From contig JADZCT010000047.1 of NCBI GenBank assembly GCA_020851455.1, forward strand, positions 186,001-250,000: a DNA stretch of 64,000 nucleotides. The letters run 5' to 3'. Positions 3,168 to 64,000 of this stretch are shown here, piece by piece (position 1 is the first letter of the stretch; every line of letters starts with the position of its first letter). The DNA is from Gemmatimonadaceae bacterium (GTDB lineage: Bacteria > Gemmatimonadota > Gemmatimonadetes > Gemmatimonadales > Gemmatimonadaceae). Under the pieces are notes generated by a model that was not told where the DNA came from, ran no database searches, and saw only the letters and a list, made by a program, of their open reading frames with translations. Position numbers and translations under genes: made by a program.

Positions 3168-4862
3168 CTAGCCGGCCCTCGCCCGTCGCTGTCGCGTCGG
3201 CGGCTGCGCTCCGAGCAGCTCTCGTGCATGCGCCCGGCTCACCTCACTCGCGGGATCGCCACCGAGCATCCGGGCCACTTCATCCACGCGCGCATCGCCG
3301 TCGAGCACGGTGACGTCGGCTGAGGTGACGCCCTCACGTGCGCCCTTGCGCACCACGACGTGATGGGCGGCGCGCGACCCGATCTGTGCGAGGTGCGTGA
3401 TGGCAAAGACCTGCCGGCGCAGCGACACCGCACGGAGCGCATCCGCCACCATGAGGGCCACGGCCCCGCCAATGCCGGAGTCAACTTCGTCGAACACGAG
3501 TGTCGGCACTCGCTCCATGTCTGCGAGAATCACCTGCAGGGCGAGCATCACGCGCGCCAGTTCCCCGCCAGACGCCACGCGGGCGAGAGGCCGGTCTTCG
3601 TGGCCGACGTTCAGCGCCACACGATACTCGACCCACTCGGCGCCGGTCGCGCGTGGCGACTCGTGCGGTACGAGGCGCACGAGGAAACTCCCTCCGTCCA
3701 TCCCGAGCGCAGGCAACTGCGCTGCCACCGCCCGTGAGAGCGCCGCCGCTCCGCGGGCGCGCGATGCAGTGAGCGCCTGCGCGGCTTCGGCGACCCGCGT
3801 CTCGGACGTGCGCACCGCCGCCTCCATAGCGCCAATATCGTGCGCCGCCGTGTCGAGGGCATCGAGCTCGGCCCGCGCTTCGCGTCCTGCGGCCAGTGCG
3901 CGCTCCATCGTGCCTCCGTACTTCTTGAGGAGGCGGAAGATGACGTCGCGCCGTCGCTGGACTTCCTCGAGACGGGCCGGGTCGTGCTCGATGCTTTCCG
4001 CGTACGCCGCCGCTTCACGCGCCAGTTCCTCGATTGCGTAGTAGGCCGCATCGTACGCGGCCTGGATCTTCGCGGCAGACGGATCTATGCGCTGGAGCAC
4101 GCCAAGCAGTCGCTGCAGGTGGCCCAGGCGCGTAAGGACCGCCTCGTCGCTTCCGTCGAGCGCCTCCGACATCTGCGCGGTGGCCGTCGTCAGTTCCTCG
4201 GCGTGCGCGAGCCGCGCGGCCTCGCCTTCCAGCGCCTCCTCCTCACCAGTCACGAGGCGGGCACGTTCGACTTCGTCGGCAACGTGGCGGAGGTAGTCCG
4301 CACGCTTCTCCGCGTCGTCGCGGCGCGCGACCCGCCGCGCCAGGTTCGCCCGGCTCTCCTCGAGGCCCGCGTGCGCATCCGCGAGCGCACGCGCTTCGCC
4401 TGTCGCACGCGCGTAGCGGTCGAGCATCTGGCGCTGGGAGTCTTCGTCGAGCAACGCACGGGCATCGTTCTGCCCATGGATGGTGAAGAGAGTCCGGCCG
4501 ATTGCCGCGAGCACGGACGCGGTGACGACGGTACCGTTGACCCACGCGCGCGAGCGTCCCGATGCGGTCACTTCACGCCTCAGTGTGACGACGCCACCTT
4601 CCGCCTCGATTCCGTGTGCGTCCAGCGCGGCCAGCACGTCGGCATTGTCGCGCGCGTGAAACTCCCCTTCCACCGTCGCCCTGTCGGTGCCCGTGCGCAC
4701 GTCGTCGGCCGACCAGCGTCCGCCGCCGAGCAGGCCAAGCGCGCCAATGATGATTGACTTGCCGGCGCCAGTCTCGCCGGTGAGGACGTTCAGCCCCGGG
4801 CCGAACGGCACCTTGACCGACTCGATGATGGCGACGTTCCGGATGCGCAGCTCGGCGAGCAC
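3168..4862 (-). CDS. recN: DNA repair protein RecN
   Basis: SMC-like ATPase that acts in recombinational repair of double-strand breaks. It is 564 residues, the usual RecN length. The Walker A motif GETGAGKS is at residues 29-36, a long coiled coil fills the middle, and the C-terminal ATPase half carries the ABC signature SGGELAR and Walker B VFDEVDSGIGG. The start is GTG at 4862, with GGAGG 7 nt upstream. It lies 15 nt downstream of nadK, the same recN-nadK neighbourhood seen in many bacteria. Confidence 0.96.
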   Translation of the reverse strand: MLAELRIRNVAIIESVKVPFGPGLNVLTGETGAGKSIIIGALGLLGGGRWSADDVRTGTDRATVEGEFHARDNADVLAALDAHGIEAEGGVVTLRREVTASGRSRAWVNGTVVTASVLAAIGRTLFTIHGQNDARALLDEDSQRQMLDRYARATGEARALADAHAGLEESRANLARRVARRDDAEKRADYLRHVADEVERARLVTGEEEALEGEAARLAHAEELTTATAQMSEALDGSDEAVLTRLGHLQRLLGVLQRIDPSAAKIQAAYDAAYYAIEELAREAAAYAESIEHDPARLEEVQRRRDVIFRLLKKYGGTMERALAAGREARAELDALDTAAHDIGAMEAAVRTSETRVAEAAQALTASRARGAAALSRAVAAQLPALGMDGGSFLVRLVPHESPRATGAEWVEYRVALNVGHEDRPLARVASGGELARVMLALQVILADMERVPTLVFDEVDSGIGGAVALMVADALRAVSLRRQVFAITHLAQIGSRAAHHVVVRKGAREGVTSADVTVLDGDARVDEVARMLGGDPASEVSRAHARELLGAQPPTRQRRARAG

Positions 4863-4877
4863 GGAACTACCTCCTGG

Positions 4878-5738
4878 CTATTCGTCGCGGTCGGCCAACC
4901 CGCCCCATCCCAGCTTGCGCCGGAGCCGCCCGATGAACGTCGTGCCGTGGAAGCGGACGATGCGTACGGGCCGCGTGGCGCGGCGGACGGTAAGCGCGTG
5001 GCCATTGGACAGTGTTGCCCCGACCTGCCCGTCCACCGTTACCAGAACATCGCCCGGGGCATCTTCCGGCTGCAGCGTGATCACGGATTCGGGCTTCAGT
5101 ACGAGGGGCCGGATGGACAGGGTGTGTGCCGCTATGGGCGTCACGGTGATGGAATGGACCCCCGGCTCGATGATGGGGCCGCCGGCCGAGAGCGAGTATG
5201 CCGTCGAGCCCGTCGGCGTTGAGATGACGATCCCATCGGCCGCGAGCACGCCCAACGGCTCGCCGTTCACCGTCATGCGCAGCCGTAGCACGCGGGCGAA
5301 GCCGCCCTTGTGGACGACAACGTCGTTGACGGCGCGGTGCACCGGCCCGTGCGGACCGTCGGCCGGGCCAGAAGTGGCTTCGAGGACCATCCGTACGTCC
5401 GATGCATAGCTCCCCTTGGCCAGTCGCGGGAGGACGCGCGGGAACTCCCGGCTGGAGCAACTTGCCAGGTATCCAAGCTTTCCGAGATTGACGCCGAGAA
5501 GCGGAACGTCCGCGCCGTCGAGAAAGCGCGCACAGCGCAATAGCGTTCCGTCTCCGCCAAGCGAAACGACGGCGTCGATGTCCTGCGGTGTCTGCACCTC
5601 ACGCGCGCCGGCGGCAATGGTCAGCAGGTCGTGTTCCACGAGCACCTCGATGCCGAGCCGGGGCGCCTCGCGCAGGGCCATGGCCACGATGTCCGCGAGG
5701 CCGTCGAAGTCCTTGTGCCCGAACACGCCAAGCCGCAT
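4878..5738 (-). CDS. nadK: NAD kinase
   Basis: Phosphorylates NAD+ to NADP+. The product is 286 residues with GGDGT at 61-65, NLGKLGYL shortly after, and the conserved TPTGSTAYSLSAGGPI block. The ATG at 5738 is chosen because it gives the typical N-terminus MRLGVFGHK and overlaps the dxs stop codon by one base (TGATG), implying translational coupling. A longer frame upstream only runs into dxs. The gene belongs to the xse-isp-dxs-nadK-recN block. Confidence 0.95.
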   Translation of the reverse strand: MRLGVFGHKDFDGLADIVAMALREAPRLGIEVLVEHDLLTIAAGAREVQTPQDIDAVVSLGGDGTLLRCARFLDGADVPLLGVNLGKLGYLASCSSREFPRVLPRLAKGSYASDVRMVLEATSGPADGPHGPVHRAVNDVVVHKGGFARVLRLRMTVNGEPLGVLAADGIVISTPTGSTAYSLSAGGPIIEPGVHSITVTPIAAHTLSIRPLVLKPESVITLQPEDAPGDVLVTVDGQVGATLSNGHALTVRRATRPVRIVRFHGTTFIGRLRRKLGWGGLADRDE

Positions 5739-54271: not shown

Positions 54272-54958
54272 TCAGGGCACCATCGAACGGCTGGCCCACG
54301 TCGTGGGCACAAGGCGCCCGTTCCTGAGTGCGAACTCCACGTACCTGACCTCACGCGGATTCGCAGGCAGAGTCACCGCCTCGCTGGCTGAAAGCCCGCG
54401 GGCCGCGAGGCTGACTACGATCTTATGGTCAACCGGGGCTACCTCGCCGCGGTACAGCTCGTCGGCGCCACCGGCTGCGAGCGTGCGCGCACGCTCCGTG
54501 CTCATCGCCACGGGTTTCTGCTGGTCACCGTCAATCATCACAACAGCGCCAACGTCGCCTTCGGGCAGGATGTCCACCCTGAGGAGGACCACCAGGACTG
54601 CCTTGTCGGTTTGCGTCGCGGCGTCCCGAAGCAGCCGGATGCGATCGCGTTGCACGAGGAGCCGCGCCTGCGCGGAGTCGAGCAACGTCTCGATCCGCTG
54701 GAGCGCACCGGCCTGCTCGCTCATCGCCAGGTTCTTCGCGCGGTCTGCAATGCTCGCCGCCATTTCACGATCGAGCGCCGCCTCGAGGGCGAGCCGCTGT
54801 CGCCGCGCCAGGTCGAGCGAGTCTTCGAGGGTGCGCGGAGCGCCTTGCCCTTGCGCAACGGCAGCGCCGAGCAGCCAGAGGCAGCCGAGCAATGCCATTG
54901 CAAGCGCACGACGGCGCGCAATCCTGCCGCGCGCCAGGGAAGTCGCATGCTGCATCAT
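54272..54958 (-). CDS. Secreted coiled-coil protein
   Basis: 228 residues. Signal peptide (residues about 1-36, ending VAQGQG), then a coiled coil (about 42-110) and a beta domain with LLRVDILPEGDVGAVVMIDG. Function unknown. Its ATG overlaps the stop of the upstream barrel gene (4 nt). Confidence 0.75.
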   Translation of the reverse strand: MMQHATSLARGRIARRRALAMALLGCLWLLGAAVAQGQGAPRTLEDSLDLARRQRLALEAALDREMAASIADRAKNLAMSEQAGALQRIETLLDSAQARLLVQRDRIRLLRDAATQTDKAVLVVLLRVDILPEGDVGAVVMIDGDQQKPVAMSTERARTLAAGGADELYRGEVAPVDHKIVVSLAARGLSASEAVTLPANPREVRYVEFALRNGRLVPTTWASRSMVP

Positions 54959-56139
54959 CGCGCCTCCGGCGGCTTTCTTGCCGCTTCGCGCGCACGCAGG
55001 AGTTCCTGCAGCCGCCGCAACGCGGCCTGCTCTTCCTGTAACTGCCGCTCGAGTACCGACCGCTCCGCATCGCGCTCCTGCATTGCAAGCGCGCGGAGCG
55101 CGTCTATCTGCCCTGAGATCACGTCAATGCGCTGCTGGGCGAGGCGCGCCTGCCGATCGAGGTCGCCCTGCTCCGCCTGCATCTGCTCTGTGCGGCGCGC
55201 GAGGGCATCGCCGCGCACGAGCGCCTGAACGTTGGCCTGCCAGCCGACCGTTAGCGCAACCTTCGGTCCCGTGTAGCGCCCGGCAGCCGATCCGGACGCC
55301 GCGGACTGGCTGCTGGCGCTCCCCATGTCGGTCGCCAGCGCAGCGATCCTCACGCCGCGCCATTCGATCCGCGCGCCGGCGTTCAGTCCCCATCCATCCT
55401 GCTCGGCCATGAACGACAAGGTGCCATACGGACCCGTCGCGAAATCTACCGATGCACCGCCGAAGGTACCGCCGGTCGCAGCGCCCGCGTAGCGATTCCC
55501 CATTCCGCCGTCGTCCGAGAAGAGCCCGGTGCCGCGCCCGGCGGTGAGGGAGATCTGGGAGGTGGGCCGATACGGATTCTCGCCCTGAACCAGGACGAAG
55601 GTGCGCGTGACGACCCCGTACACCGACCCCGCCGTCCTGAGAGAGGACGAAGGATCAGTCGTGGCGAGCCGGCTCAACGATCGCTCCGTTCCGACGTTGC
55701 GAATCCCAGCGGCGATGCTGGGCAGCCAGTGCACCAGACCCCGCCTCCAGGTCGCGTCTGTCTGGTCGAACAACATCAGCTTGCCGAACAGGCCGCTCTT
55801 GAGGTCTCCGGAGAAAACGGAGATGCCGACCTCTCCCCGGCCCCAGAGTGAGGCCGAAAGGGAGACGTTGTACGACGCAGTCTTCCCCGCCCCGACCGGG
55901 AGCGCTGCGCTGTCCAGCGCCAGGCGCGTGAAGGTGAATGCCAGGTCGCCGCCGAGCGGGGCGACGGCAGCCGCCGGTACGTTGATCAGCCCTCCGTCCC
56001 AGAATAGCGTTGGGCCGAATGTTGGCCGCTGAGCATCCGCCCGTGCAACGGGCCAGAGAAGCGCGGCAGAGCATGCCACTGCCAAGCATGCGCTCCAGGC
56101 ATCGGCAGCGGCGGGAAGCCAACCTCGCCGTAGAATCAC
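54955..56139 (-). CDS. Outer-membrane beta-barrel with C-terminal coiled coil (B)
   Basis: 394 residues. A signal peptide at the start (cut near ADAQ) precedes a barrel-like region of alternating strands with conserved-looking GGDLAFTFTR and many aromatic strand ends (about 40-300). The last ~90 residues form a coiled coil with Q/E-rich heptads, ending ARKPPEAR. A barrel followed by a coiled coil pointing into the periplasm is unusual. The neighbouring gene at 56136 encodes a paralogue with the same plan. Overlaps of 4 nt on both sides. Confidence 0.75.
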   Translation of the reverse strand: MILRRGWLPAAADAWSACLAVACSAALLWPVARADAQRPTFGPTLFWDGGLINVPAAAVAPLGGDLAFTFTRLALDSAALPVGAGKTASYNVSLSASLWGRGEVGISVFSGDLKSGLFGKLMLFDQTDATWRRGLVHWLPSIAAGIRNVGTERSLSRLATTDPSSSLRTAGSVYGVVTRTFVLVQGENPYRPTSQISLTAGRGTGLFSDDGGMGNRYAGAATGGTFGGASVDFATGPYGTLSFMAEQDGWGLNAGARIEWRGVRIAALATDMGSASSQSAASGSAAGRYTGPKVALTVGWQANVQALVRGDALARRTEQMQAEQGDLDRQARLAQQRIDVISGQIDALRALAMQERDAERSVLERQLQEEQAALRRLQELLRAREAARKPPEAR

Positions 56140-57347
56140 GGGATCCGCCCCCCTGGCTCTGGCGGTTTCTTGCCAAGCTCATCGAGCCGCTTCTGCGCGT
56201 CCTTCAGTGCCTCACGTTCTGCGTCCAGTTGGCGAATGAGAAGCTGCTGCTGTTTCCGCGACGCATCGTCCGCCACCCGCGCCGCCGTCTGCAACTGCTC
56301 CACCAGACGACGCGTGATCAGGCGGCGCTGCTCGATCTCCTGCTCGATGCGTTTCAGCTCAAGCCTGGCCTCGGCTGCCTCGGCGCGCTGCGTGCTGCCG
56401 CGGACGATGGACGGGAGACTGGCGTTATACGAGAATGCGATCGCTGCCTTGGTGAAGTTGGCGAGCGCTCCGTTGTCAGGAACCCCCTTCGCCTCTTCCA
56501 ACTCCGTGAGATAGATCCCCCCGCTCACATGTCCGAGCGTGAACCGCAATCCGGCGTTCCAGTCGAAGCCATTGTTCTCCAGCATGAATGTCATCTCACC
56601 GCCCTCGCCGGCCGGGACCACGTAGCGATAGCCGGCGAACAATCCTGGAAGGATCGTGCCTCGAGTGCTGTTGAGTGAGCCAAGTCCGCCGGTTTCCCTG
56701 AACAATCCGTTCCCGTACCCCACGGTGACAGAAGCGCCCCCGGAGGCGTACCTGAACTCACGGGTAGCCACCAGGTACGCCGTCGGGCTGCCGTTGTATA
56801 CACCGCGACCGCCCCGAAGGCCCGTGTCACCAAGGACGTCAACGATCCGGCGCTCGCCGGTCACGAAACGATCCTGGTACCTGCTGGATCCGATGTTGCG
56901 GGCGCCGATCGCAATTGCCGGGACCCAGGTGTCTCGATCCGTCCGCTGCTCGACGAGCAGGAACTGGCCGAAGCCGCCCACTTGCTGGGTACGTGTGCTG
57001 TACAGCGAGCCGCCGAAGGAGATCCGCCCGCGCAGGTGGAGCTCGAGGGACTGCGTCAGGTCCCAGAGCGACCCGCCTGCCGAGGGCCGGTACGAGCCAG
57101 CCCCCACCGCGCGCGCGCTGATGGATGCGAACAAGTCGCCGTCCGCAGGGGAGACCCAGGCGACCGGAATGCTTGCCAGCCCCGTGCCGAAGGTGAGCGT
57201 GGATCCGTAGGCCGGCAGGGGCGCCTGGTAGGACGATCCCTGTGCGTCCGCCGTCGCTGCGATGAGCGGCAGCAGCGCAACTGCCACCAGCGTAACGCTG
57301 ATGAACCTGAACGGCAGGCGCGCGGCAGGAGCAGATCTGGTGAGCAT
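56136..57347 (-). CDS. Outer-membrane beta-barrel with C-terminal coiled coil (A)
   Basis: 403 residues from the ATG at 57347 (a TTG start 12 nt upstream is possible). Signal peptide to about TADAQ, then a barrel-like beta region with LWDLTQSLELHLRG and repeated SVTVGYG-type strands to about residue 300, then a coiled coil of ~80 residues ending LDELGKKPPEPGGR. Shares the layout and the terminal K-P-P-E tail with the downstream protein, so they are probably paralogues. First gene of the machine operon; no strong ribosome site is visible. Confidence 0.75.
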   Translation of the reverse strand: MLTRSAPAARLPFRFISVTLVAVALLPLIAATADAQGSSYQAPLPAYGSTLTFGTGLASIPVAWVSPADGDLFASISARAVGAGSYRPSAGGSLWDLTQSLELHLRGRISFGGSLYSTRTQQVGGFGQFLLVEQRTDRDTWVPAIAIGARNIGSSRYQDRFVTGERRIVDVLGDTGLRGGRGVYNGSPTAYLVATREFRYASGGASVTVGYGNGLFRETGGLGSLNSTRGTILPGLFAGYRYVVPAGEGGEMTFMLENNGFDWNAGLRFTLGHVSGGIYLTELEEAKGVPDNGALANFTKAAIAFSYNASLPSIVRGSTQRAEAAEARLELKRIEQEIEQRRLITRRLVEQLQTAARVADDASRKQQQLLIRQLDAEREALKDAQKRLDELGKKPPEPGGRIP

Positions 57348-57495
57348 GGGCGGACTCAATAATAGACTAATGGCGCTTCAAGGCCGTAACCGCGTCCGAG
57401 TCATCAGCCGCCGCAGGCAATTGTTCTGCCACGGAGCGCGCGCGCCGCAGCCCCAGTAGGCCGTCACTGCTAAATTACCGCGCGGCGGAGGGCCG

Positions 57496-59914: not shown

Positions 59915-59986
59915 TGGGCCCTGCTGGATTCGAACCAGCGCACGCTCGATTATGAGTCGATCGCTCTACCGCTGAGCTAAGGGCCC
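59915..59986 (-). tRNA. tRNA with CAU anticodon, most likely tRNA-Ile2 (lysidine type)
   Basis: Cloverleaf of 72 nt: acceptor GGGCCCT/AGGGCCC, D stem GCTC/GAGC, anticodon loop CTCATAA (anticodon CAT), T arm with TTCGAAT, discriminator A; CCA is not encoded. CAU could be Met or Ile2. The acceptor pairs C4-G69 and C5-G68 are the TilS recognition pairs of tRNA-Ile2, and the sequence resembles the E. coli ileX acceptor, so Ile2 is preferred. One mismatch lies at the outer anticodon stem pair. Confidence 0.88.
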
Positions 59987-60075: not shown

Positions 60076-60149
60076 GGGCGCGTAGCTCAGCTGGTTAGAG
60101 CGCTGCTTTCACACAGCAGAGGTCCGGGGTTCGAGTCCCTGCGCGCCCA
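60076..60149 (+). tRNA. tRNA-Val (CAC anticodon)
   Basis: Cloverleaf of 74 nt: acceptor GGGCGCG/CGCGCCC, D arm with GCTC...GAGC, anticodon stem CTGCT/AGCAG around TTCACAC (anticodon CAC), T arm with TTCGAGT, discriminator A. CCA is not encoded. Reads GUG. Divergent from the CAU tRNA 89 nt away. Confidence 0.95.
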
Positions 60150-60162
60150 CTGCCTCGCGGGG

Positions 60163-60756
60163 TCACCCGGCGCTCGGCATCTGCCGGGCCGCCGCAGCAC
60201 CCTCCCGACGGCGGTGAGAGCGCGCCAGGGTCAGCGCGCCCCACCCGACGACAGCCACCAGAACGACGGGGCTGAGGCCAACAAGCAGCCGGCCGGTCGC
60301 CTTCTGCTGGGCAAGATCGAACGTTCCGCAGAGCAGCGCGGAGTAGCTCGTGTAGAGCACACCCAGGGCGAATGTCATCGAGATGGCGTGAATGCCCAGC
60401 GCCCCGCGAACCACGAACGGCACGGCGGGCAGGCTGACCCCCAGGACCGCCCCCGCGGCGAGAAGACTCAGGTGCATCAGCTGGTTGGCCAGCGGCGACG
60501 CTCCCACGAGGTCCACCGATCGCGGCAGCATCCAGAACCACATCGTTCCCAGGAAGAGCACCAGCCCGGCTGCTCCGTACGGATCCCACCGCCGCAGGGC
60601 ATCGCCACGCCCGCGCGCAGCGAGCCAGCCGAGCGCCAGCCATGCCGGCATCTCGACCAGCAGCAGCCGTGGCATCGCGCGGTCCAGCCACGCGTCAATC
60701 GGCGGAGCTATGAGAGTCGCCGCGGCGACCGCCAGCGCCAGAGTGCGCGGCTTCAC
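60163..60756 (-). CDS. Small multi-pass membrane protein, 'orf1'-type partner of the heme-copper cluster
   Basis: 197 residues with about six transmembrane helices, including LLLVEMPAWLALGWLAA, WFWMLPRSVDLV and LMHLSLLAAGAVLGV. It has a conserved-looking His and aromatic residues (Trp, Met). Possibly a CtaG-like assembly factor, but I cannot name the family. The GTG start overlaps the SCO stop as GTGA, so it is co-translated with the heme-copper genes. In nitrifiers a small membrane ORF follows norSY-senC in the same position. Confidence 0.75.
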   Translation of the reverse strand: MKPRTLALAVAAATLIAPPIDAWLDRAMPRLLLVEMPAWLALGWLAARGRGDALRRWDPYGAAGLVLFLGTMWFWMLPRSVDLVGASPLANQLMHLSLLAAGAVLGVSLPAVPFVVRGALGIHAISMTFALGVLYTSYSALLCGTFDLAQQKATGRLLVGLSPVVLVAVVGWGALTLARSHRRREGAAAARQMPSAG

Positions 60757-61358
60757 GACGCGAGCCGCCTGATCTCCGCCGCAATGACCCCGGGGTCGCC
60801 GTCGGCCCGGAATACGCGTACAACGCGCCCTGCCCGGTCAATCAGCACCATGTCGGTGGAGTGGTTGATGAGGCCGTCACGGCGGCGATAGACCCAGATT
60901 CCGAGCCGTTCCATCGCATTCGCGCCATCGGTCGCTTCGAGCGATGCCATCGTCCAGCCCTCGGGCGAGCCGTGAGCTCGCCACCTGTCGAGCAGATCGC
61001 GGGGCGAGTCACCGTCAATGCTGAGGCTTACCACTTCAACCCTGCCGGGCGAGAGATCGCGGAGCGCGTACTGTACCTGCCCGAGATTCGCCATGGCGAT
61101 CGGGCAGACGTCGGGGCATCGCAGGTACATCGCCTGCACGAGCCGGAACGCCGGCCCGGGCGCCGCGAGGTCGTAGCGTGTGCCACGAGCGTCAACCACC
61201 AGGAGCGGCGGCGCGGGCCGCGGCAGCGGTCCCGCCGCGACTCGCGCCGCAGAAAAGCTCGTGAACGCCTGAAAGCCGTGGGTCCATGACGCCAGTACGA
61301 AGACAGCGGCGATCGCCATCCCGACGGGGAGGATGCGCGCCACGCCGGCGGGCTTCAT
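60753..61358 (-). CDS. SCO1/SenC family copper-delivery protein
   Basis: 201 residues. An N-terminal membrane anchor (about 8-28), then a thioredoxin-like domain with MYLRCPDVCPIAMANL: the CxxxC metal site of SCO proteins is intact, with the usual late His in INHSTDMVLID. It delivers copper to the CuA site of the terminal oxidase/reductase subunit II encoded in the same run. The ATG overlaps the subunit I stop as ATGA. Confidence 0.93.
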   Translation of the reverse strand: MKPAGVARILPVGMAIAAVFVLASWTHGFQAFTSFSAARVAAGPLPRPAPPLLVVDARGTRYDLAAPGPAFRLVQAMYLRCPDVCPIAMANLGQVQYALRDLSPGRVEVVSLSIDGDSPRDLLDRWRAHGSPEGWTMASLEATDGANAMERLGIWVYRRRDGLINHSTDMVLIDRAGRVVRVFRADGDPGVIAAEIRRLAS

Positions 61359-62854
61359 CCCCGCGCGCCCGCCCCGGCGACCGCCGCCTCGCCTGGGCTG
61401 CGGCGCCCGATGCCATTCGACAGGAAGAAGACCAGCGCCCCGAGGAGGAACAGCGACGCGAAGAGCGCGCCCCACAACGCGTAGTGCGTCCCTGGCTGCG
61501 ACACTGACGGGAGCGGTATTGCGGAGTAATCCGCGTAACGGCGCGGCACGGAGCTCAGGCCACCGAGGTAGAACATCAGCACGAAGCCATAGCCGCCGAC
61601 AAGCATAGTCACGAACCCCGTGCCCGCCAGCCGCTCAGCCCGCGAGTTGAGGTGATGGTGAAGGAAGCCGAAGAGGATGAGCACGAACCCGACAAGGAAG
61701 TAGGTGTGGAAGTGCGCCGGCACCCAGAGCGTGTTATGGAACACGCGGTTCACAGCGATCGTGGCGTCAATCACCGCCGCGGCCCCGCCGATGCCCCATC
61801 CGACGACGGACATCATGAATGCGAACGGCGTGAGCGTCCACTTGATTCCCGACCGGTAGAGCTGGCTCCCCACGCCGAAGATCGTTACCGCGGTGGCCGG
61901 CAATGCCGACCCGTACGACGCAATCTGGCCGAGGATCTGGATCGCCTTCGGCTGGGCGAAGTCCATGTACAGGTGGTGGAAGTACGCGAAGAGGATGAAC
62001 ACCAGCGTGGCATTCCACGAGATCACCAGCAGCCGGTTCACCTTCCACGGGCGCTTGGTGTACGCGGGCATCAACTGGTACATCACGCCAAGGCCGCAGT
62101 ACATCGCGACGTTCACGATGGTGTGGCCGAACATGAACATCGTGTTCTTGAGCAGGAGCGGGTCGAACTGCGTCGCCGGCGTCACCCACTTGAACAGGTA
62201 GATGATAAGCGTGGCCGCGCCCACGACCGTGCCCAGAATGCCGGCAGTTGCGCAGACGGCCGTGATCATGACGGCGGGCGGGAGCGGCTCGGCCGGCTCG
62301 CCCTTGTAGTACTCGAGGCCGAACATCCTCTTCAGCCCGTAGCCAGCCGCGAGGACGCGCATGATGTCCATCTGCATCACCAGCCATGCGACGCCAAGGA
62401 TCATCAGCGAGACGATCGTCGTCCCGATGGTCCAGCTGGGCCAAGCGGCGTTGACGAACGGCAGCGGGTAGAGCGCATACCATCCGGCGGCGAAGTGGCC
62501 AACCAACGTGGCCGCGAGCACCCCCACTACGCCGATAAGCACCAGCACGTAGCACACCCACATCACCGTGTGGTTCATCTGGAACCGCAGCGCGGTGAGG
62601 TACCAGATGAGCACGACGCCGGCCGTGAACAGGCCGCCGGCCATGCCCAGGCCGTGCATCGTCATCAGGGCATAAAACGTGTTCGGCATCAGTTTGATCG
62701 CGGCGCCCTGGTTCAGGCGCATCGTGATTCCGAGTATCACCATCACGACGAACGCCGCGAGCATCGTCGCGAGCCAGATCGTCACCAGCCGCCGGGAACG
62801 GGCGTCAATTTCCGGTACTTCGCGCGGCTTGAGTGCCCCCGTCGTCGTGCTCAT
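61355..62854 (-). CDS. Heme-copper oxygen/nitric oxide reductase subunit I
   Basis: 499 residues with about 12 transmembrane helices. Heme ligands: H67 (LMTMHGLGM), H381 and H383 (VPAHFHTYF). CuB ligands: H244 and H293/H294 (YFHHLY). The usual HPEVY motif that carries the redox-active Tyr is replaced by H244-T-I-V-N248, so the tyrosine is absent from this position. This is unlike A- and B-type oxidases and fits NO reductase-type families, for example the sNOR NorY. It overlaps subunit II and SCO by 4 nt each. A plain oxidase remains possible if a tyrosine is supplied from another helix. Confidence 0.9.
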   Translation of the reverse strand: MSTTTGALKPREVPEIDARSRRLVTIWLATMLAAFVVMVILGITMRLNQGAAIKLMPNTFYALMTMHGLGMAGGLFTAGVVLIWYLTALRFQMNHTVMWVCYVLVLIGVVGVLAATLVGHFAAGWYALYPLPFVNAAWPSWTIGTTIVSLMILGVAWLVMQMDIMRVLAAGYGLKRMFGLEYYKGEPAEPLPPAVMITAVCATAGILGTVVGAATLIIYLFKWVTPATQFDPLLLKNTMFMFGHTIVNVAMYCGLGVMYQLMPAYTKRPWKVNRLLVISWNATLVFILFAYFHHLYMDFAQPKAIQILGQIASYGSALPATAVTIFGVGSQLYRSGIKWTLTPFAFMMSVVGWGIGGAAAVIDATIAVNRVFHNTLWVPAHFHTYFLVGFVLILFGFLHHHLNSRAERLAGTGFVTMLVGGYGFVLMFYLGGLSSVPRRYADYSAIPLPSVSQPGTHYALWGALFASLFLLGALVFFLSNGIGRRSPGEAAVAGAGARG

Positions 62855-63381
62855 CGGACCGTGAACCCGTTGATCATCATGTGGTGGACCATTCCGCAGT
62901 ATTCCATGCAGAGGACGCTATAGTGACCGGGCTCGTCGAACTTGAGCCGCAGTCGGTTGGTGTATCCCGGCATCGCCTGTGTCTGGCCAACGAGGTGTCC
63001 TTCGCTGTCGTAGATCCCGAAGCCGTGATTGACGTCGGCAGCGGTAACCTCGAACTCGACGGCCTTCCCGAGCGGGATCACGAGCGAGTCAGCGGAGCTG
63101 CCATCCGATGGTTTGAACTCCCAGAACCACATCCTGCCGATCACTTCCACCCGCATCGCCGGCTCTTCGCTGGAATAGGCGCCGTACGGCGTGTGAGGAA
63201 GCGACCACGCCAGCGCGCCAAGGAGCGCGACGGCGAGCGCCGCCGCGTAGTACTTCCGCACGCGGTACACCGAGGCGTTTCCGTTCGGCACTGACTGGCG
63301 GGCGCGAGCGTACACGAAGGCCGCCACCCCCAGGATGACGAGCGCCACCGCGAGGGTCAGGTAACCTGCCATCTGAATCAT
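62851..63381 (-). CDS. Heme-copper reductase subunit II with CuA site
   Basis: 176 residues. Two N-terminal membrane helices (about 5-25 and 44-60), then a cupredoxin domain. The CuA ligands are complete: H119 (VNHGF), C158, E160, C162, H166 and M169 in C-x3-C-x3-H-x2-M. It passes electrons from a soluble cytochrome to subunit I. First gene of the four-gene cluster; purine-rich GGGTGG lies 5-6 nt before the ATG. The 216 nt upstream is divergent with the gene at 63598 and shows no complete regulator site that I recognise. Confidence 0.93.
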   Translation of the reverse strand: MIQMAGYLTLAVALVILGVAAFVYARARQSVPNGNASVYRVRKYYAAALAVALLGALAWSLPHTPYGAYSSEEPAMRVEVIGRMWFWEFKPSDGSSADSLVIPLGKAVEFEVTAADVNHGFGIYDSEGHLVGQTQAMPGYTNRLRLKFDEPGHYSVLCMEYCGMVHHMMINGFTVR

Positions 63382-63597
63382 CTATGCCACCCTCTGCACT
63401 GATTCTGGTTGTCTGGAAGCCGCCGTACCGGCGCGGCCTGGGACTCGCTGCACACGGGGAGAGTGCGAGTCGCGCACCGCGATAACTAACGTTGGGCACG
63501 GGGAGAATCAACGTGACGGATGTCATACCGGGTCTGGCGCGCCGAGCACGGTGCGCGACAAGTTTGCGATCACACCTCCCACGCGCCGAGGCACGCA

Positions 63598-64000
63598 ATG
63601 CCCGCACCGATCGCTTCGAGCTCAGAGATTGCCTCGTTCGTCCTCGCAGCCGGCGCACTTGGCACGGCCGCGTACGGCGTTGTCGAAGCGTCGAAGTACT
63701 TCGCTGCGATTGGCGAGGCGGGATATCCCTCCCTCACCGGTGTGCTCGGCGGGTTGATGGGCCCGCTGAGGACAGCGTACGGCGCGAACGCCGACGCACT
63801 CCTGCGGGCGCAGTACCGCGGCGATCAGCGCGCGCTCACCCGGCTCCTGCGCCAGGGAGTCCGGATTGGATTGTGCGGTGACAATGCGCAGTCAGTCGCG
63901 CGCGATCTGGCGTCGGTGGACCCCGAATCCCTCGCCCGGGCGATTCGCGTGGCGACCGGAGAGGACGAGCGCGCCACGGCGCAACTGCAGCGTGACGCAG
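63598..64000 (+). CDS. Unknown protein, 3' end beyond window
   Basis: At least 134 residues from the ATG at 63598, with GAGG 7 nt upstream; the frame is open to the right edge. One hydrophobic segment (about residues 12-30, ASFVLAAGALGTAAYGVV) may anchor it in the membrane. The rest is helical with an Asp-Pro-Glu-Ser / Ala-Arg-rich region. No family recognised. Divergent from the heme-copper cluster. Confidence 0.6.
   Translation, partial: MPAPIASSSEIASFVLAAGALGTAAYGVVEASKYFAAIGEAGYPSLTGVLGGLMGPLRTAYGANADALLRAQYRGDQRALTRLLRQGVRIGLCGDNAQSVARDLASVDPESLARAIRVATGEDERATAQLQRDA

Follow-up and report, generated by a model that had tools for sequence, protein, structure and literature searches.

A norSY-senC-orf1 cluster in a Gemmatimonadaceae genome probably encodes an sNOR-type nitric oxide reductase

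Main finding

The window, i.e., the whole stretch of 64,000 nucleotides of Gemmatimonadaceae DNA that was analysed, carries a four-gene cluster that seems to encode a nitric oxide reductase of the sNOR type (NorSY) together with helpers for copper insertion, a reading to which we give a probability of roughly 0.8. Judging from its sequence, the enzyme most likely turns nitric oxide (NO) into nitrous oxide (N2O). The sNOR family, its gene order and its characteristic Asn have already been described, and the cluster is a further sNOR member and not a new kind of system. The sNOR seems to have been gained horizontally, and the genome that carries it has a clade-II NosZ, but NirK and NirS were not found there.

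Gene organization and genomic context

As the earlier note had described, four genes coupled by 4-nt overlaps follow one another in the order CuA subunit II, subunit I, SCO/SenC and small membrane protein (Table 1). All are on the minus strand, and the three overlaps are 62851-62854, 61355-61358 and 60753-60756. The start of senC is placed at ATG 61358, which gives the 4-nt overlap with the norY stop; a longer, mechanically called senC reading frame begins at GTG 61475 and would share 121 nt with norY.

Table 1. Features of the cluster and its borders, in window coordinates
Feature	Position	Strand	Evidence and remarks
norS (CuA subunit II)	62851..63381	-	Pfam COX2 8e-10; CuA motif; two predicted TM segments
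norY (heme-copper subunit I)	61355..62854	-	Pfam COX1 2e-50; residue table; AF2 model; trees
senC/SCO (membrane-anchored copper chaperone)	60753..61358	-	Pfam SCO1-SenC 1e-7; CPDVC motif plus His, complete
orf1 (small polytopic membrane protein, GTG start)	60163..60756	-	conserved beside senC; AF2 pLDDT 95.0
tRNA-Val(cac)	60076..60150	+	ARAGORN; left border of lineage-specific insertion; adjoins hflX in congeners
hypothetical gene, start only	63520..64000	+	within tRNA-Val/hflX insertion, with DUF900 hydrolase beyond window

NorS has 176 aa, with two N-terminal TM helices and a complete CuA motif (C158-x-E-x-C-x3-H-x2-M), and NorY has 499 aa and 12 TM helices, with the motifs H244-x3-N248-x3-Y252, HH293-294 and H381-x-H383. 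The AF2 model of NorY shows 12 long helices (pLDDT 91.3, pTM 0.92) and is matched over its full length by structures of heme-copper oxidase subunit I (best Z 39), so that its fold is the ordinary one of this subunit. None of the four cluster proteins reached the cut-off of an NCBIfam model. The absence of subunit III and cytochrome c genes beside the cluster, which the earlier note had claimed, is borne out by both flanks, with two tRNAs followed by a protein without Pfam match on one side, and the hypothetical gene, the DUF900 hydrolase and hflX on the other.

The cluster is located between tRNA-Val and hflX, which lie 5.1 kb apart in the window genome, and this insert consists of the four genes, the hypothetical gene and the DUF900 hydrolase. 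In three congeners, tRNA-Met, tRNA-Val and hflX are consecutive and the site is empty, with ~110-150 bp from tRNA-Val to hflX; thus, the gain of the cluster seems to be lineage-specific and points to horizontal acquisition at a tRNA-flanked site. The cluster was not found in the other sampled genomes of the same genus, and the far side of the insert shows no direct repeat of the tRNA-Val end that could serve as an attachment site. Regarding the neighbouring tRNA-Met (window 59915-59986), it lies on the strand opposite to tRNA-Val, whereas both run in the same direction beside hflX in the three congeners, which is a local inversion or replacement. Elsewhere in the window, two consecutive minus-strand genes with a 4-nt overlap (54955-57359) encode similar-looking, secreted or outer-membrane-like products that have no Pfam match and probably form coiled coils at their C-termini.

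Active site and K-channel residues

NorY was aligned with MAFFT, with Thermus ba3 included as numbering reference (its His233 falling at index 233 as a check). An altered active site in subunit I, as had been claimed from the sequence alone, is what this alignment displays, since the three CuB His and both His of the H-x-H motif are retained (located in the alignment at H244, H293, H294, H381 and H383), and Asn248 occupies the position of ba3 Tyr237, the CuB-His cross-linked Tyr of oxygen reductases. This position is Tyr in oxygen reductases, Glu in cNOR and qNOR, Gln in eNOR, Asp in gNOR and Asn in sNOR and CuANOR (PMC8756737 Table A4). Asn is also found there in Ruegeria and in two amoA-bearing genomes, and the helix VI signature H-x3-N-x3-Y, comprising the equivalents of Asn248 and Tyr252, is present in 96/96 scorable relatives, being clade-wide in sNOR, whereas none of the oxygen reductases and eNORs in the comparison has it.

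A tyrosine supplied by another helix, which the earlier note had set against its own reading, was not seen at the C-family helix VII site. At this site, six residues before the His pair, the C-type CcoN of Ruegeria has Tyr, and none of the 96 scored relatives does, the residue being I, V, M, S or L. Tyr291, two residues before the His pair, was also considered as a substitute, and rejected as not conserved because Tyr occurs there in just 75/96 relatives and Phe, Val, Trp or Thr in the others. As for the K-channel of ba3, Tyr248, Thr312 and Thr302 correspond in NorY to Tyr259, Thr324 and Ser313, respectively, although the match of Thr324 to Thr312 is tentative because it needs a one-residue insertion in helix VIII, and Tyr244, Ser309 and Thr315 are without counterpart. 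Tyr259 is kept in 96/96 scored relatives.

Phylogenetic placement

In trees of 71 and 60 proteins, NorY falls inside an Asn-bearing clade (support 97/99 and 100/99) that stands apart from A-, B- and C-type oxidases and from eNOR; in a third tree, of 30 proteins, support for the sNOR clade is 100/100. No bNOR, nNOR or gNOR reference sequences were included in these trees. Members of the clade are a protein of the Ruegeria pomeroyi megaplasmid, a species formerly placed in the genus Silicibacter, and homologues from two Burkholderiales genomes that bear amoA-family genes and are probably Nitrosomonadaceae. Silicibacter has been given as an sNOR bearer (PMC8756737).

Approximately unbiased (AU) tests on the 30-protein tree rejected the placement of NorY with A-type (p 4e-5) and with B-type enzymes (p 5e-121), a placement that the earlier note had named as refuting its reading. 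A topology in which NorY and the three reference sNORs alone form a clade was rejected as well (p 8e-46), and NorY lies in a separate subclade of the sNOR clade. Its nearest relatives are sequences of Acidobacteriota, Myxococcota and Kiritimatiellota (identity up to 63%), and the subclade, as sampled here, consists mostly of metagenome-assembled genomes from many phyla. NorY shares gene order and clade with norSY of ammonia oxidisers, but its sNOR subclade is not that of the enzymes of ammonia oxidisers and Ruegeria. The deep branching among sNOR, A-type and B-type enzymes is unreadable since long branches meet in the trees.

Conservation of the operon and features of orf1

Profile searches on 80 relatives recovered the four genes in S-Y-senC-orf1 order, on the same strand, in 39, which rules out a chance arrangement; most of the remaining relatives have S-Y and a divergent SCO gene, with orf1 not recognised. 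The order norSY-senC-orf1, which the earlier note had named, is real, corresponding to NE0683-86 of N. europaea (PMC4940428), and was also seen directly, with all four genes, in Ruegeria and in both amoA-bearing genomes.

Pfam matches of orf1 are below threshold (Caa3_CtaG 1.4e-4, and DUF1404), and at 21.7 bits, below the curated Caa3_CtaG cut-off of 27.7, it does not qualify as CtaG; among 19 orf1 homologues, 8 match Caa3_CtaG at E <= 0.1. Its AF2 model is confident, but no known fold was assigned to it, given a best Foldseek E of 1.6 and a best VIA Z of 5.8.

Two side observations were made on related loci. On plasmid pW43B of Parasedimentitalea marina (L118, ~3405-4928), a norY homologue broken by stops lies unannotated beside annotated norS, senC and orf1 neighbours. 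In two Planctomycetota loci (L089 and L098), a second CuA-SCO block directly upstream of the S-Y-SCO cluster suggests two heme-copper clusters in tandem.

Nitrogen-oxide genes in the genome and the phylum

The window genome (2.96 Mb in 139 contigs, 97% complete) contains three kinds of subunit I, namely one aa3-type, the sNOR and one eNOR-type. The eNOR-type gene lies in two pieces at the ends of two contigs (G000:C56:77113-77925, L004; G000:C114:127743-128414, L003), and the pieces differ at a few residues in their short overlap. It encodes GHSSQQ, with Gln at the cross-link site, is preceded by a CuA domain and followed by an SCO protein, and groups with plasmid eNORs of Thermus, Defluviimonas and Thermomicrobium. 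The search for nirK and nosZ that the earlier note had suggested had a mixed outcome, since a clade-II (Sec-type) NosZ is present (G000:C76:141711-143513), but no member of the NirK, NirS or NrfA families was found in this genome and, thus, NO would need an outside source. Upstream of norS, no FNR/DNR or NsrR operator stood out above background.

Across 298 genomes of the phylum, with sNOR-clade subunit I counted at E <= 1e-60, 11 bear an sNOR. NosZ occurs in 10 of these 11 and in 93 of the 287 without one (Fisher p 1.4e-4, kinship ignored) or, by genus, in 9/10 with sNOR and 42/109 without (p 0.002, kinship likewise ignored).

On a Thermus thermophilus plasmid (L138, 1704-4645), a CuA subunit and a Gln-type (eNOR) subunit I labelled cbb3-type oxidase precede an Rrf2 regulator and a DUF542 protein; of ten Thermus plasmid records with matches in the same search, one was examined. 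A Thermomicrobium roseum plasmid (L105, L140) carries an Asn-type enzyme of the sNOR clade and a Gln-type eNOR together, both annotated as cbb3-type oxidase.

Proposed mechanism

From sequence features we infer NO reduction by NorSY, along with the electron donor, the proton path and the role of orf1. A periplasmic carrier would give electrons to the CuA centre of NorS, from which they would pass to the low-spin heme of NorY and on to the heme-CuB site, where 2 NO + 2 e- + 2 H+ would be converted into N2O + H2O. Asn248 takes the place of the Tyr that oxygen reductases use in O-O bond cleavage and, in the absence of this cross-link Tyr, four-electron cleavage of O2 should be poor. Protons would probably come from the cytoplasm via a remnant K-channel (Tyr259, Thr324 and Ser313), perhaps aided by the clade-specific Tyr252, and copper would be loaded by SenC and probably by orf1. 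Together with NosZ and the eNOR, the cluster would take outside NO to N2.

A more far-reaching proposal, which we consider possible but rather doubtful, is that Tyr252 and Tyr259 form a rebuilt proton path that makes NO reduction electrogenic, and that sNOR, eNOR and NosZ act as an energy-conserving NO scavenger. In such a path, protons from the cytoplasm would reach the active site via Tyr252 and, two turns below it, Tyr259, in place of the lost K-channel residues, and NO from other organisms would be used by two different NORs and NosZ in a genome where no nitrite reductase was found.

Alternative explanations

The main rival to NO reduction, although unlikely, is that NorSY works mainly as a high-affinity oxygen reductase that tolerates NO or reduces it slowly. 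An O2-reducing role has been argued for the N. europaea enzyme on the basis of its strong induction under O2 limitation, its heme-copper centre and its lack of the NorB glutamates (PMC6967387), and the ordinary heme-copper oxidase subunit I fold and the partly retained K-channel residues of NorY would fit such a role. Nevertheless, all 96 scored relatives lack a cross-link Tyr both on helix VI and at the helix VII position, an aa3-type oxidase is already present in the genome, and the co-occurrence with NosZ also argues against this role.

It is very unlikely that NorSY belongs to another NOR family, either bNOR (qCuANOR type I) or nNOR, instead of sNOR. The Asn that bNOR likewise has and the trees built without bNOR or nNOR references leave room for such an assignment, but published sNOR representatives share the clade of NorY, and the 499 aa and 12 TM of NorY and the 2 TM of NorS differ from the ~568 aa, 13 TM and one TM, respectively, of bNOR. 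Most improbable of all is that the cluster is a decayed or unexpressed horizontal acquisition; its insertion beside a tRNA gene is lineage-specific and no other sampled congener carries it, yet none of the four frames is interrupted, the overlaps are retained and the metal-binding motifs are intact. An sNOR-type nitric oxide reductase is, thus, the preferred reading.

Relevance for annotation

The usual annotation of sNOR genes is cytochrome c oxidase or cbb3-type oxidase (PMC11388526), as RefSeq labels seen in this analysis also show, with the consequence that genome surveys overlook NO reducers. The combination of H-x3-N-x3-Y with the S-Y-senC-orf1 order represents a simple signature and a candidate annotation rule.

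Comparison with known systems

Among oxygen reductases, the ba3-type (B-family) shares with NorY the fold, the metal ligands and part of the K-channel, whereas NorY lacks the cross-link Tyr, has one TM helix fewer and belongs to a separate clade (AU p 5e-121). A-type enzymes have the helix VI cross-linked Tyr in place of Asn248 (AU p 4e-5), and C-type (cbb3) enzymes have the helix VII Tyr six residues before the His pair that occurs in 0/96 scored relatives. Among NO reductases, cNOR and qNOR differ from NorSY in their active-site Glu and their NorC or fused quinol domain, as opposed to Asn248 and a CuA partner (PMC8756737 Table A4), and gNOR, by its definition in the same source, has Asp at the cross-link position instead of Asn248. 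The eNOR resembles NorSY in being a two-subunit, CuA-linked enzyme in which the cross-link Tyr is replaced, but the replacement is Gln and not Asn, and eNOR forms its own clade beside the B-type oxidases.

Three further groups of enzymes have Asn at this position. In bNOR (qCuANOR type I), which also has Asn there (PMC8756737, PMC3475470), subunit I has ~568 aa and 13 TM helices and subunit II one TM (PMC3475470), and this published description sets it apart from NorSY, with its 12 (AF2) and two. The qCuANOR type II of Bacillus azotoformans (BAZO_04695-04710) consists of CuA subunit, subunit I, SenC and a 4-5 TM protein, its subunit I having 12 TM helices and Asn for Tyr and its subunit II two TM helices (PMC3475470); going by this description, the cluster has the same order, topology and Asn, and similar gene sizes, in a different phylum. 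Finally, the sNOR of ammonia oxidisers and Ruegeria has in common with the cluster the gene order, the CuA subunit, the Asn, the H-x3-N-x3-Y signature and a well-supported clade, within which NorY, only ~35-37% identical to these enzymes, is placed in a sister subclade that also holds sequences of Acidobacteriota, Myxococcota, Kiritimatiellota and other groups.
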